DNA of 64,000 bases from Micromonospora sp. NBC_01813. Lineage in GTDB: Bacteria > Actinomycetota > Actinomycetes > Mycobacteriales > Micromonosporaceae. The notes under the pieces were generated by a model, which did not search any database, was not told the origin of the DNA, and saw nothing but the letters and a program-made list of their open reading frames with translations. Below are positions 28,308 to 33,120 of this stretch, in pieces. The translations under genes were made by a program, and so were the position numbers. Position 1 is the first letter of the stretch; every line of letters begins with the position of its first letter. The stretch is from contig NZ_CP109067.1 in NCBI RefSeq assembly GCF_035917335.1, positions 6,385,001 to 6,449,000 of the forward strand, in the 5' to 3' direction.

Positions 28308-30167
28308 TCAACCCCACCACTGCTGACCTGTCGGCTCGTTGGGGTGCGGTGGCCAGGTTGCCCCAAGGCGGATGGTGGTGGGCCGGCCGGGGTGGCGGGC
28401 GGCGAGGCGGCGTACCTCGGAGATGAAGCTGGATGTGTCGAGAGCGGGACCGGCCGACGCGAGCTGTTGGGGGACGGGGATCGGCCGGTCTGGGATCTTC
28501 GGGATGGTGGCGCGCAGCGCGCCGCTGAGGTAGCGCAGGCAGAGCGCGACGGCCTCGGGCAGGCTGGCGCAGGTCGGGGCCTGGTCGACGGCGACGGCGG
28601 CGGCTGGGCCGACGACCGCGACCTGCCAGCCTTCGCCTTGCGGCAGGTCCGGGCGGGCAAGATTGCGCCGGTGGTCGACCACGGTGACGTCGAGCGCGAG
28701 GCCGACGCCGACGACGATGCGGGCGAGGTCGTCCAGGCTTGGCCCGGCCCAGTCGTTGGCGCGGACCAGCAGCCGGGCAGCGTGGTGGGTGGCGACGACT
28801 TCGGCCAGAAAGGTGCCGACCGGGTCGCCGCCGTCGGGCGCAAGGTGACTGACGCCGTCGCGCAGGTGCTGCTCGACGACGGTTTCGCCGTCGAGGTCGG
28901 TCAGATCAACCGGCTGTACGCCGAACTCGGCGGCCAGCAGGCCGACCCGGTAGTGCTCGGGCAGCCGCCACCCGGTCGGGCCGCCGGGTGAGTCGGTGCC
29001 GATGAGCGTGGCCGCTGGCTGCGGGTCCTCCTGGTCGGGTCGCCAGTTGCGGTGCACGGTCCGGCCGCGCAGGTCGGTGACGGTGAGCACCGCGCCGCGC
29101 CGAATCTGGCGGGTGCCGTAACAGTCCACGCAGTACGGCGGATCGTTGGCGTCGCGGCAGCGGACGCAGGGGCGGGTGGGGATCGACTCGCCCCAGTAGT
29201 CAGGGGCGGGCGGCTCCCAACCGCGCCGGAACGCACCCGCCGTGTCACCCGGTCGCAGGCTGGTGTGCCACCACTGCCGGTTCCGCCAGATCGCCTGCGC
29301 GCCGCAGCGCGGCTCGGTGCCAGCGGGCTGCCCGGTGGCCGACAGTTGCTCGGTGACCGACGGTTGTTCGGCGTCGGCGTCGGCGACGATCCGACGTTCG
29401 AGCTGGTCGATGTCGTGCCCGCCGGGGTAGCCGGCCAGGCCGACCGTCGCCGGGCGCGGCGTGAGCGCAGCATCGGCGAGGAAGTACGCCGGGACGTCCG
29501 GGCCGGCGCTGTCCAGCCCGGACGCCGCTTGCTCGGCGGTGACGGTGGCGATCGCGGCGGGCAGGTCGGCGGCCCGCCGGTGCGGGTAGTCGGGCACCTG
29601 GCCGCCGGGCAGCTCGAAACGGATGTCCCAGGTCAGGCCGGCACCGGCTGTGGCACTGGCACTGGCTGCGGCTGTTGCCGGTCGGGCTTCGATCACCAGG
29701 TCGACGTGCAGTTGGTCGGCGAGCATGCAGAGCCGACCGAGCAGCCGGGCGTGCTCCGGTGGGGCGGGCTCGGTGCTGCGGCCGAGCAGGACCAGCCACG
29801 GGGCGGTTACCCGCTCGGCTATCGCGGCGGCTTCGAGCTGGTGTCGCTGCCCGACCGGCAGCTCAGGTTGCCACTGGCGGGGCAGGTTGATCCCGGCGGC
29901 GGGCAGCCGGCCGCGTTCGTCGGGGAAGTCCGGGTCGTGCAGCGTCGCGGCAGCGACCCCGGCCTGTGCGGCGAGGCCAGTGACGATCGGGCGAAACGGC
30001 AGCCACCAGCCGCCGTTCGGCGTCGGGACCGGCGTGAACCCGCCTGGCACGAGGCTGGTCGAGGCGATCTGCCCAGTGTCGAGGTTGCCGACGGTGAGCA
30101 CGATCTGTGCACGCCGCCGGCCGCTGCCGGTGCCGACGACGTGGATGCCGGCCGGCGTGCCGGTCAT
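28308..30167 (-). CDS. Uncharacterised 619-aa protein with Cys4 zinc motif
   Basis: I do not recognise a named family. The N-terminal ~260 residues are mixed alpha/beta, a variable Glu/Thr/Pro-rich stretch follows (about 262-290), then C334-x2-C337-x8-C346-x2-C349, a rubredoxin/DnaJ-like zinc knuckle ending CYGTRQI, and a C-terminal alpha/beta domain (about 355-619). There is no signal peptide or membrane helix. Its ATG overlaps the stop of the DivIVA-domain gene (ATGA), and two smaller genes precede that. It is the last gene of a four-gene unit whose job is unknown. Confidence 0.85.
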   Translation of the reverse strand: MTGTPAGIHVVGTGSGRRRAQIVLTVGNLDTGQIASTSLVPGGFTPVPTPNGGWWLPFRPIVTGLAAQAGVAAATLHDPDFPDERGRLPAAGINLPRQWQPELPVGQRHQLEAAAIAERVTAPWLVLLGRSTEPAPPEHARLLGRLCMLADQLHVDLVIEARPATAAASASATAGAGLTWDIRFELPGGQVPDYPHRRAADLPAAIATVTAEQAASGLDSAGPDVPAYFLADAALTPRPATVGLAGYPGGHDIDQLERRIVADADAEQPSVTEQLSATGQPAGTEPRCGAQAIWRNRQWWHTSLRPGDTAGAFRRGWEPPAPDYWGESIPTRPCVRCRDANDPPYCVDCYGTRQIRRGAVLTVTDLRGRTVHRNWRPDQEDPQPAATLIGTDSPGGPTGWRLPEHYRVGLLAAEFGVQPVDLTDLDGETVVEQHLRDGVSHLAPDGGDPVGTFLAEVVATHHAARLLVRANDWAGPSLDDLARIVVGVGLALDVTVVDHRRNLARPDLPQGEGWQVAVVGPAAAVAVDQAPTCASLPEAVALCLRYLSGALRATIPKIPDRPIPVPQQLASAGPALDTSSFISEVRRLAARHPGRPTTIRLGATWPPHPNEPTGQQWWG

Positions 30168-30559
30168 GCCGGCATCATTCCGGCCTGGAACTGCTGCGAC
30201 TGCCAGTCGCGCAGCGCCTGCTTGATGCGATCGTTCTCATCCTGAGTGGCGGCCAACTCGGCGCGCAGCGCGGTCAACTCGTCGGCGACCACGTGCAGGA
30301 AGGCGCGTACCTCCGTCGGGTCGCAACCGCGCCGGGTGCGGTCGTGGAACTGGCGGTCGCGGACCAGGCCGGGGCTGATCGACGGCCGTACGGCGGTGCC
30401 GTAGTAGGCGCCGGCGTTGCGGCTGCGGCGCAGCGGCAGACGCGACCCGGCACCGGGTCGGGCCGGCGGCCGGGACTGCCGCCGGGACTGCTCGGCGAGC
30501 AACCGCCGCTGCCGCCGGCTGCGCACGGGTACGCGGAACAGGTCGAAGAATCTGCGCAC
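30164..30559 (-). CDS. DivIVA-domain-like small protein
   Basis: 131 aa from GTG 30559, with AGGAAGGG upstream. The N-terminal 50 residues are very basic (runs of Arg). Residues about 75-125 (LVRDRQFHDRTRRGCDPTEVRAFLHVVADELTALR) match the membrane-curvature-sensing DivIVA N-terminal pattern, followed by a short coiled coil. It is much shorter than polar-growth DivIVA/Wag31. It overlaps the downstream 619-aa gene by 4 bp. A scaffold or localisation role for its neighbour is possible but unproven. Confidence 0.75.
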   Translation of the reverse strand: MRRFFDLFRVPVRSRRQRRLLAEQSRRQSRPPARPGAGSRLPLRRSRNAGAYYGTAVRPSISPGLVRDRQFHDRTRRGCDPTEVRAFLHVVADELTALRAELAATQDENDRIKQALRDWQSQQFQAGMMPA

Positions 30560-30618
30560 GGTAGAACCGCCCTTCCTCAGGTCACGGATTGCGTTCACGT
30601 TGTCGGGTTGCTTGCTCG

Positions 30619-30873
30619 TCAGGTGCTTTTCGTGGTGCGCGCCCAGCGGAGACCGGCTCGCTGGACGAAGATTTCGCGCCGCTCGCGGGCCTGGCCGTCG
30701 GGGCCCAACACGTAGCCGGCGAGCCACACCCAGCCCTGGTACGTCCAGCCCTGGTCCACTGTCGTCACCCGGAACACGAAGCCATTGCCGGCCCGGAACT
30801 GGACACTCGCTCGGCTATCGATGATCAATTCGTCGCCGGGGCGGGGATCTGTCGGGGATCGGTCGGCCGGCAC
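30619..30873 (-). CDS. Hypothetical protein, 84 aa
   Basis: GTG 30873 lies one base after the stop of the 42-aa membrane peptide gene, so translation is coupled. The product (PGDELIIDSRASVQFRAGNG, GWTYQGWVWLAGYVL, REIFVQRAGLR) looks like a compact all-beta domain with many Trp/Tyr residues. I do not recognise a family. It is followed after 59 bp by the DivIVA-domain gene. Confidence 0.7.
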   Translation of the reverse strand: MPADRSPTDPRPGDELIIDSRASVQFRAGNGFVFRVTTVDQGWTYQGWVWLAGYVLGPDGQARERREIFVQRAGLRWARTTKST

Positions 30874-30874
30874 G

Positions 30875-31003
30875 TTACCGATCGGCCGCCGGCACCGTCA
30901 GCCGCCCGCGTTCGGGACACCAGCGTGATTTGATCTTGAAACTGAACAGTCCAACGAAGAAGCCGAGCAGGGCTGCCACAGTCAGTGCACCAAACGCCAC
31001 CAT
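30875..31003 (-). CDS. Small membrane protein, 42 aa
   Basis: ATG 31003 has GGAGG at ideal spacing. The 42 residues start MVAFGALTVAALLGFFVGLF, a single membrane helix, followed by a basic cytoplasmic or external tail SFKIKSRWCPERGRLTV and TAA at 30875. It is too short for routine gene calling, but the ribosome binding site, the helix and the one-base junction with the next gene make it convincing. It is the first gene of the four-gene unit. Confidence 0.78.
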   Translation of the reverse strand: MVAFGALTVAALLGFFVGLFSFKIKSRWCPERGRLTVPAADR

Positions 31004-31216
31004 GATCAACCTCCTACGTTGGACTGGATGGTGAAGTAGGTCGTTGTTGTGGAGCAGGTGTCAGGTCGGCTAGTGGCGTGGCTCATGTTGATCATCTGGT
31101 TCCCTTTCTGGGGAGCCGTCAAGTCGCATCCCTCGACATCCACCCTGGACTGGGCCCGACTTGCGGCGGAAGATAGTGGGCAGCAAGTGGCGTCAGGCGA
31201 ACGGGAGCGTTGACTA

Positions 31217-32005
31217 GTGGCGAACCAGTATGCGAACGAACTTCAGGAGCTACTCAAGCAAGCGCGCCAGTCGCGCGGGATGTCCCAGGACGCCGTTGGT
31301 GCGGAAGTCCACTTGAGTGGTTCTCAGATCGGCAACTATGAGAACGGCAAGGCGATCCCCCCGGACGACATCGCGATGCTTCTCGATGCGGTGTACGGCA
31401 CCGGGAAGCAAATCCGGGAGGCAGCTGAGGAAGCTCGGGGCGAGACTGTGCCGCCCTGGCTCCGCCCATGGGCCGACAACGAGGAGCGCTCCACTCTGCT
31501 CCGTACGTTCCAACCAAACCTCGTGCCGGGCCTCCTGCAAACCGAGGCGTACGCCAGGATGGTCCTTACCGCTGGTCTCCACTCAGAGGCAGAGGTCGAG
31601 GAGATGACTCGGGACCGGCTGGCGCGGCAGGCCGCGACGCTCGAACGGCCAGACCCGGTGATGATCTCGGCGATCGTCTGTGAACCGGTGTTACGGACCG
31701 GCGACCCAGCGGTCATGAAAGCTCAGCTTGAGCACCTGGTCGACCTTAGCCACCGCCCGACCGTTCATGTTTGGGTCATCCCGACGCGTGCGGGCGTGCA
31801 CGTCGGACACTCCGGCTCGTTCGTGATCGCGACCTTGATCAACGGAACCAGGATCGGCTACCTGGACGATCAACTCGAAGGACGACTGGCGTCGAGCGCC
31901 AGCAAACTAGCTACGCTGGAACGACGGTGGGAGTCTGTGAACGACCTGGCCTTACCTGGTCAGGAGTCGCGAGACCTGATGCTAAGGGTGATCGATGAGT
32001 ACTGA
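31217..32005 (+). CDS. XRE-family regulator with DUF5753 domain
   Basis: 262 aa. An N-terminal XRE HTH (about 8-65, LLKQARQSRGMSQDAVGAEVHLSGSQIGNYENGK) is followed by DUF5753 (about 85-260). This combination is abundant in actinomycetes and is nearly always paired with a DUF397 gene, as here (11-bp overlap). BldB/AbaA/WhiJ-like systems of this type regulate development or antibiotics, and some behave like toxin-antitoxin pairs. GTG 31217 follows GGGAG. It is divergent from the four-gene unknown cluster (213-bp gap), which it may regulate. Confidence 0.93.
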   Translation: MANQYANELQELLKQARQSRGMSQDAVGAEVHLSGSQIGNYENGKAIPPDDIAMLLDAVYGTGKQIREAAEEARGETVPPWLRPWADNEERSTLLRTFQPNLVPGLLQTEAYARMVLTAGLHSEAEVEEMTRDRLARQAATLERPDPVMISAIVCEPVLRTGDPAVMKAQLEHLVDLSHRPTVHVWVIPTRAGVHVGHSGSFVIATLINGTRIGYLDDQLEGRLASSASKLATLERRWESVNDLALPGQESRDLMLRVIDEY

Positions 32006-32186
32006 GCACACGCCGCAGTGGCGCAAGTCCAGCCGTAGCAGCAACGGTGGAGACACCTGTGTCGAGGTTGCGGACAACGTCCCAGGCCGGGTGTATGTCC
32101 GTGACACCAAGGACCGCGAGGCAGGGACCCTGACTTTCGAGCCGGCAGCCTGGTCGGCGTTCGTCGAACTGGCGAAGTCCCGCTGA
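31995..32186 (+). CDS. DUF397 protein, partner of the XRE regulator
   Basis: 63 aa, full-length DUF397: WRKSSRSSNGGDTCVEVADNVPG, VRDTKDREAGTLTFEPAAWSAFVE. The ATG lies within the 3' end of the XRE gene, so production is coupled. DUF397 proteins are thought to bind and modulate their adjacent XRE/DUF5753 protein. Confidence 0.93.
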   Translation: MSTEHTPQWRKSSRSSNGGDTCVEVADNVPGRVYVRDTKDREAGTLTFEPAAWSAFVELAKSR

Positions 32187-32326
32187 CCCTCCTACCAGCC
32201 GAAGCGACCCCGCGCCGAAGGGTGGCGCGGGGTCGCCGAGCGGCTGAGGCGTCGATGGTGCGACCGTACTCTCGCGACTCGCTCGCAGGCGTCCAGGCTT
32301 TCAAGCGCGTGAAGGAGTGCCATCTA

Positions 32327-32551
32327 GTGCCCAGTAGTCGTGACGCGCTCTCCCCAGAGGTTCTGGCCACCGCGCAGTACCGAAAATCAACCCGATCAGA
32401 CAGCACAGGCTCATGCGTCGAAGTCGCCACGAACCTTCCCGACGTCGTGCTCGTACGCGACAGCAAGGACCCCGCCGGCCCTTCCCTGAGCTTCGGCCCC
32501 CACAGCTGGACATCCTTCGTTAGCACCCGCAAGACAGGGGACCCTCGCTGA
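32327..32551 (+). CDS. Second DUF397 protein
   Basis: 74 aa from GTG 32327, with AAGGAG nine bases upstream; the longer frame to 32222 has no such site. It keeps the DUF397 core (YRKSTRSDSTGSCVEVATNLPDVVLVRDSKD, LSFGPHSWTSF) but is divergent from its neighbour. It has no XRE gene of its own and lies 53 bp before an IS1380 remnant, so a partner may have been lost, or it is a duplicate serving the same regulator. Confidence 0.85.
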   Translation: MPSSRDALSPEVLATAQYRKSTRSDSTGSCVEVATNLPDVVLVRDSKDPAGPSLSFGPHSWTSFVSTRKTGDPR

Positions 32552-32604: not shown

Positions 32605-33120
32605 GCGCAGATCGCCGAAACCACGTACACCGCGTTCGCCGGCACCCGACACGAGGCGACCGCCCGGCTGATCGTGCGCCGCGTCCGCCGTGACGACCCG
32701 CAACAGATCCCCGGCCAGGACGAACTCCTGCCGACCTACCGGTACCACGCCGTGTTCACCGACAGCCCGTACACCCTCGTACAGGCCGAAGCCCAGCACC
32801 GGCAACACGCGATCATCGAGCAGGTCAACGCCGACCTGATCGCCGGGCCCCTGGCCCACCTGCCCTCCGGACACTTCAGCGCCAACGACGCCTGGCTGAC
32901 CTGCGCCGCGATCACGCACAACCTCACCCGCGCCGCCGGACACCTCGCCGCGGGCACCTGGTCGACCGCCAGACCCGCCACCATCCGGACCCGGATCATC
33001 ACCGTCGCAGCCCGCCTCGCCCACCGGGCCCGCACCATCCACCTACACCTGCCCGAGTACTGGCCCTGGCAGGCGGCGTTCGACAACCTGTTCACCGCCG
33101 TCCAACCGGCACCCGGCTGA
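32605..33120 (+). pseudogene. IS1380-family transposase, 3' remnant
   Basis: A continuous frame without an initiating start encodes the C-terminal third of an IS1380-type DDE transposase: TARLIVRRVRRDDP, ELLPTYRYHAVFTDSP, AEAQHRQHAIIEQVNADL, SANDAWLTCAAITHNLTRAAG and EYWPWQAAFDNLF. The N-terminal DDE region is missing, so it cannot transpose. It marks an old insertion boundary next to the XRE/DUF397 genes. Confidence 0.85.

Follow-up and report, generated by a model that had tools for sequence, protein, structure and literature searches.

The window analysed here is a stretch of 64,000 nucleotides from Micromonospora sp. NBC_01813 (contig NZ_CP109067.1, positions 6,385,001 to 6,449,000), whose genome is a single contig of 7.63 Mb. 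A four-gene cluster on the minus strand of the window (28308-31003, delimited by open reading frame (ORF) listing and translation) lies back to back with a regulator pair, an XRE protein with a DUF5753 domain and a DUF397 protein. We found that a 13-bp site in the intergenic region between them tracks one group of XRE regulators rather than the output genes, and that the last two genes of the cluster, which encode a DivIVA-like protein and a 619-amino-acid (aa) protein here called BIG, are the constant core of the operon. We propose that the locus is a WhiJ/BldB-type pair that would switch a membrane-associated effector made of a DivIVA-like and a putative zinc protein, and that it is one copy of a family expanded in the genus. 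In our judgement the chances of this proposal are about even.

The targets of WhiJ/BldB-type regulators are a long-standing question: mycelial actinomycetes hold these regulators in many copies, for only a few of which a target is known. In the present case many such regulators have an exactly conserved DNA site in common and come with recurrent outputs, one of which is a protein family without a recognisable fold. The result is a concrete candidate site, a set of operons that may be targets and a DivIVA-linked protein not described before.

The regulator pair and the site in the divergent intergenic

The WhiJ-type regulator (31217-32005, plus strand; 262 aa) combines an XRE helix-turn-helix (HTH_31, E 4.2e-11) with DUF5753 (E 2.4e-44). 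Its gene overlaps by 11 bp that of a 63-aa BldB-type DUF397 protein (31995-32186, plus strand; E 1e-20), and the host genome contains 71 DUF5753 matches, fragments among them. An XRE-DUF5753 protein, a co-directional DUF397 gene and a large paralogous family are features of WhiJ/BldB loci, and all three are found here. SCO4543, which is WhiJ (PMC10294661, PMC4255298), is listed with the same make-up of XRE-DUF5753 plus DUF397 (PMC10364602). An earlier note on this DNA had recognised an XRE/DUF397 unit divergent from the cluster. The unit lies as described, and it weighs more than that note supposed.

The divergent intergenic is 213 bp long and holds a 13-bp site that was absent from the earlier note. 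The site occupies 31139-31151, reads TCCACCCTGGACT on the plus strand and AGTCCAGGGTGGA on the minus strand, and has the core TCCA-N3-TGGA; we propose it as an operator in the -35 region of the XRE gene. In the host genome, 18 exact copies of AGTCCAGGGTGGA were observed, where a dinucleotide model based on the window predicts 0.24. Each of the 18 has a divergently oriented XRE gene next to it and stands 65-163 bp upstream of that gene (64 loci with 68 XRE calls); the 400-bp stretches upstream of XRE genes together make up about 0.35% of the genome. The 13-mer was first spotted by eye in three intergenics of this genome; these three sites are the discovery set, and 15 of the 18 are therefore independent. 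When one mismatch was allowed, 34 copies were found, against 4 for the reversed control.

The site recurs in other genomes. Seven genomes of the genus carry 8-18 exact copies each, with none for the reversed control, and in genome G328 13 of 14 exact sites stand 63-302 bp upstream of an XRE gene. The site was matched in 56 of 121 family genomes, and G314, which belongs to another genus, has 11 exact copies against 1 for the reversed control. Single loci taken from 30 site-bearing genomes showed a correctly placed XRE gene in 5/6 cases within the genus and in 2/24 from other genera. No clear common block was seen in the viewed part of the aligned divergent intergenics of other genera. The 13-mer as one word was not found in the literature searched, whose coverage leaves out most subscription papers.

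The distribution of the site follows the phylogeny of the regulators. We built a tree of 63 host XREs, that is, the 68 calls minus five of 230 aa or less, which include L125 with its one-mismatch site. All 21 site-bearing XREs (two mismatches or fewer) fell into a group of 27, and none was found among the 35 of the other group. Gain and loss of the site on this tree required 4 changes against 17.7 after shuffling, and 0 of 500 shuffles came as low. The outputs beside exact sites vary: they comprise an NDGIG-type peptide, which can be read at 10 of the 18 sites no more than 330 bp downstream, the pair of the membrane peptide TM42 and an 84-aa protein, the DivIVA-like/BIG pair, and other genes. 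Since outputs vary at the site and BIG operons also occur with other regulators, regulators and outputs look exchangeable.

In the window, TGGACT (31146-31151) at one end of the site is followed after 17 bp by GAAGAT (31169-31174, plus strand), a proposed XRE -10 element whose AAGAT is conserved at fixed spacing; TGGACT and AAGAT at this spacing would constitute the XRE promoter.

Some further features were seen around the regulator and the site. Site-linked ORFs start with (R)NDGIG, often RNDGIGG(T/E)PRLARY (e.g. L100, L103, L104, L113), and the NDGIG proteins of L104 and L113 had no Pfam match. Small-protein families of 86, 217 and 142 aa recur beside the regulator, on the far side of the XRE/DUF397 genes, at several loci of Micromonospora and Plantactinospora (L034-L063), and representatives of these families had no over-cut-off Pfam match. 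Downstream of the DUF397 gene in the window lies a second DUF397 ORF (32222-32551, plus strand; listed as 109 aa, with the domain at residues 51-102), adjoined by an ORF at 32674-33120 on the plus strand that by eye resembles a truncated transposase.

The four-gene operon and its two modules

The four genes and the junctions given in the earlier note were found at their positions on the minus strand. The first encodes TM42, a 42-aa peptide (30875-31003) with a single hydrophobic stretch, FFVGLFSFKIKSRWCP. Its best 19-residue hydropathy is 2.33 and 6 nt separate the end of a GGAGG ribosome binding site from its ATG, so that the description of a membrane peptide with a good ribosome binding site was borne out. 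One base separates TM42 from the gene of the 84-aa protein (30619-30873), whose family is without assignment. After 59 bases follows the gene of the DivIVA-like protein (30164-30559; 131 aa), which shares a 4-bp overlap, ATGA, with the gene of BIG (28308-30167). A 29-aa ORF at 31006-31095 on the minus strand ends two bases ahead of the TM42 start codon.

That the set is genuine and conserved, as the note held, was upheld by the ratio of nonsynonymous to synonymous substitution rates (dN/dS). This was computed by NG86 in ten comparisons, with one related locus of the host genome and nine of other genomes, and pools paralogues with orthologues. The ratio was lowest for the 84-aa protein (0.16-0.34), followed by TM42 (0.24-0.45) and the DivIVA-like protein (0.34-0.49), each in 10 comparisons, and highest for BIG (0.48-0.56 in 9/10 comparisons; the tenth was excluded because of a stop within the aligned stretch). 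All four genes, with values below 0.6, are under purifying selection. In several relatives the 84-aa frame is conserved right from the GTG codon, which backs this start.

BIG gave 13 matches in the host genome, which correspond to 11 places. Genes at the host loci were called with a home-made caller based on codon usage. A DivIVA-like gene stands upstream of BIG at all 11 places, directly and with the 4-bp overlap at 10 of them and with a small gene in between at one. The same order was seen in six further genomes of the genus: at the 20 loci taken from them, the DivIVA-like gene directly precedes BIG with a 4-bp overlap in 20/20, the 84-aa gene precedes the pair in 16/20 and TM42 is present in 9/20; these loci are biased towards the kind found in the window because mostly best-scoring BIG places were taken. 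The 84-aa gene is present at 4/11 host BIG places. The complete set is found at two of the 11 only, the window and L022, so that the idea of a fixed four-gene unit did not hold. The cluster is genuine, yet it consists of two modules, each of which also occurs without the other. The DivIVA-like protein has 16 matches in the host genome, the 84-aa protein 12 places and TM42 14 places; by coordinates, 12 of the 14 TM42 places and 8 of the 12 84-aa places are away from BIG. TM42 lies within about 600 bp of the 84-aa gene at 7 of the 12 places of the latter, again by coordinates, and we therefore regard TM42 and the 84-aa protein as the second module.

Other arrangements of these parts were also noticed. 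At L162 (host positions 260513-265513) an XRE/DUF397 unit stands back to back with genes for a TM42-like peptide, a DivIVA-like protein of 70 aa and a protein of the 84-aa type, BIG not being among the genes seen; this is a third arrangement of the same parts. L032 and L033 hold DivIVA-like genes without BIG, directly followed downstream by a distant TM42-like stretch, RHRHRWCPGCGR.

TM42 and the 84-aa protein had no over-cut-off match in Pfam or NCBIfam. TM42 of the window has CPERGR where nine relatives of the genus have CPxCGR. A structure prediction of the 84-aa protein from its single sequence, made without an alignment, was uninformative, with a predicted local distance difference test (pLDDT) score of 46. 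The DivIVA-like protein has a basic N-terminus and is matched over residues 61-120, or 66-120 in a second match, and it ends 11 residues past this stretch. It scored 22.5 bits against TIGR03544 (cut-off 22) and 24.9 bits against Pfam DivIVA PF05103, which is under the gathering score of 28. The domain was found at E 0.001 in 17/17 members of an alignment from which four short members had been excluded. 'DivIVA domain' together with Micromonosporaceae was not found in the literature searched, within the same coverage as above.

Four cysteines of BIG (C334, C337, C346 and C349) are invariant in 9/9 aligned sequences of the host genome and in 28/28 across genera, the window's sequence being included in both. 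The larger alignment consists of the window and 27 of 32 loci described below, those with a called protein longer than 600 aa, the other five being excluded; the short forms at two of the 11 host places, L030 (256 aa) and L031 (360 aa), were left out of the alignments. This Cys4 site may bind zinc. Some relatives have an extra N-terminal Cys-rich part. BIG and the 84-aa protein, for which the earlier note had proposed profile searches and structure prediction, found no reliable match; for BIG the search covered Pfam, NCBIfam, PADLOC, PHROGs and PDB sequences. The AlphaFold model of BIG (pLDDT 82.2, predicted template modelling score 0.81) had no Foldseek match, the best E being 0.92 in the PDB and 3.2 for viral proteins, and its fold is possibly new relative to these two sets. 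A single comparison of residues 143-208 with 478-542 (probability 74%, E 2.7e-05) is no more than suggestive of an internal duplication.

Of 200 genomes of the family, 39 contain BIG; these come from 11 of 44 genera and include 7/7 genomes of the genus. Among 296 genomes of the phylum, the host alone had a match; this search was not very sensitive, because only four candidates were scored per genome and 4/11 of the host's own places were recovered. A scan of 84,980 species genomes with two short peptide patterns gave 32 loci in Micromonospora, Plantactinospora and one Dactylosporangium metagenome-assembled genome, all of which we take to belong to Micromonosporaceae. A DivIVA-like gene was called in 20 of these loci; an 85-aa Cys/His protein often comes next, ahead of BIG. 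The 85-aa protein stands between the two genes in Micromonospora and Plantactinospora; it was considered as a relative of a BIG segment and rejected (hhalign probability <1%).

Proposed function and competing explanations

The position of the regulator suggests that it controls the operon. The XRE-DUF5753 protein, with its DUF397 partner, would bind the TCCA-N3-TGGA palindrome at its own -35 region and so set the level of the divergent operon as well as its own, and DUF397 would modulate this action. Within the operon, TM42 may serve as a membrane anchor and the 84-aa protein as a small partner, while the DivIVA-domain protein could be an oligomerising adaptor and BIG the zinc-bearing main body. 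A membrane complex of these proteins is plausible. If iosA and abaA of Streptomyces venezuelae are a guide, the operon would normally be kept low, and its released product might act at the cell envelope or pole, modulating growth or sporulation.

Several observations weigh against this proposal. The nearest divergent gene in the 32 loci of the pattern scan was an XRE gene in 18, in line with the proposal, but a mini-GntR gene in 8 and another gene or none in 6; beside the 20 BIG operons of the genus, mini-GntR (8) was more frequent than XRE (6), and no regulator was recognised in 6. None of these 20 operons has the exact 13-bp site, and at L022, the second full set in the host genome, the XRE belongs to the other group and the site is missing. 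The site-holding XRE group has moderate support (87/66) and includes six XREs without the site, and the recognition-helix residues vary among site-bearing XREs, with 14/21 fitting a text pattern and ten residue pairs present. One-mismatch sites, 16 against an expected number of about 10, are little more frequent than chance would give, and the signal therefore rests on the exact copies. A scan for the sigma-70 consensus found no promoter in the intergenic, and TGGACT/GAAGAT fit 7 of 12 consensus bases. Direct repeats like those bound by WhiJ9 of Streptomyces were absent from window positions 30990-31230; elsewhere, short repeats were seen in some of 13 stretches, with no obvious common unit.

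The conserved element may have another meaning, namely a shared promoter or the site of a third factor such as a sigma factor, which the XRE copies would have inherited by descent. This would explain why the 13-mer is identical though the recognition helices of the XREs differ, and it agrees with the promoter-like layout in which AAGAT is conserved at fixed spacing. However, none of the 35 XREs in the other group has the element, the core is a palindrome, and the 13 conserved positions exceed the need of a promoter hexamer; on balance we find this explanation unlikely, if worth serious consideration. In a different reading the DivIVA-like/BIG pair serves hyphal growth as a structural or trafficking unit, with copies for particular growth stages, regulators freely exchanged and no developmental brake. 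The constancy of the pair under several regulator types fits such a unit, but its patchy spread over the family, 39/200 genomes, speaks against an essential role in growth, and we regard it as rather improbable. We give little credence to the XRE-DUF397 pair being a type II toxin-antitoxin system beside which the four-gene operon is a mere unrelated neighbour. Such a role has been proposed for DUF397-Xre on comparative grounds (PMC2701414), but the XRE gene is directly divergent to the core at 18/32 other-genus and 6/20 same-genus loci, above the expectation for chance neighbours, and the Streptomyces work treats such pairs as regulators.

The earlier note had also looked towards a neighbourhood of defence or conjugation genes. 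Many divergent paralogues, the swapping of regulators, a tiny membrane peptide and the dN/dS of BIG, the highest of the four, would suit an anti-phage or conflict system. Nevertheless, BIG, the DivIVA-like protein and the 84-aa protein, the three cluster proteins scanned, matched no PADLOC family, none of the four had a PHROGs match, and no relative of BIG was found in viral contigs, plasmids or phages. These searches gave no hint of a tie to defence or mobile elements, and we consider a defence role quite unlikely. The XRE protein matched HTH-bearing PADLOC models weakly (best E 4.7e-05).

A wider picture can also be put forward, which is tentative and in our estimate falls well below an even chance. 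One WhiJ-type group would maintain a genus-wide network with a near-invariant 13-bp palindromic operator, across which divergent output cassettes (TM42 with the 84-aa protein, an NDGIGG peptide with a small protein, or the DivIVA-like protein with BIG) are swapped. DivIVA-like/BIG would then be a membrane-associated machine with a fold not seen before, exerting local control over hyphal growth or sporulation, and the copies would act as separately addressable developmental brakes.

Comparison with known systems

The DnaJ central (CxxCxGxG) zinc domain was matched by 7 of 28 BIG members (best E 0.00094), the window's BIG not being among them, and most of BIG is unrelated to it. The likeness to the DivIVA/Wag31/GpsB family lies in the domain found in all aligned DivIVA-like members; the window member differs in being only 131 aa long, with little sequence past the domain and a score below Pfam gathering. 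Further traits of the DivIVA family are a long C-terminal coiled coil and polar localisation. BIG, to our knowledge, is not part of that family.

The regulator pair is best compared with Streptomyces. Some graspetide clusters may also come with DUF397-DUF5753 pairs (PMC13097080). The whiJ/abaA clusters of Streptomyces coelicolor (PMC4255298) share with our locus multiple copies of a WhiJ-like regulator and a small SCO4542/BldB-type protein, joined by a third partner that varies, and whiJ paralogues have been suggested there as developmental brakes. The anti-sigma-like HATPase (abaA-like) partner present at some Streptomyces loci had no match among the seven window genes scanned (eight entries). 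In S. venezuelae, WhiJ9 binds direct repeats beside iosA, the activation of iosA in a bldB mutant requires WhiJ9, and loss of WhiJ9 roughly doubles the level of its own transcript; sporulation is impaired when either iosA or abaA6 is overexpressed, and joint overexpression mimics the bald mutant (PMC10294661). The iosA-whiJ9-bldB9 locus of that report has in common with ours a WhiJ-type regulator with a DUF397 BldB paralogue in multiple copies, and an output gene without assigned fold across a regulated intergenic. It differs in its three CGNNCTCAAC direct repeats, in place of which our locus has the candidate TCCA-N3-TGGA palindrome, and in its 15-kDa IosA, compared here by its description, where our locus has the four-gene DivIVA/Cys4 operon. 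Such layouts have been examined chiefly in Streptomyces; the four-gene DivIVA/BIG output is new.

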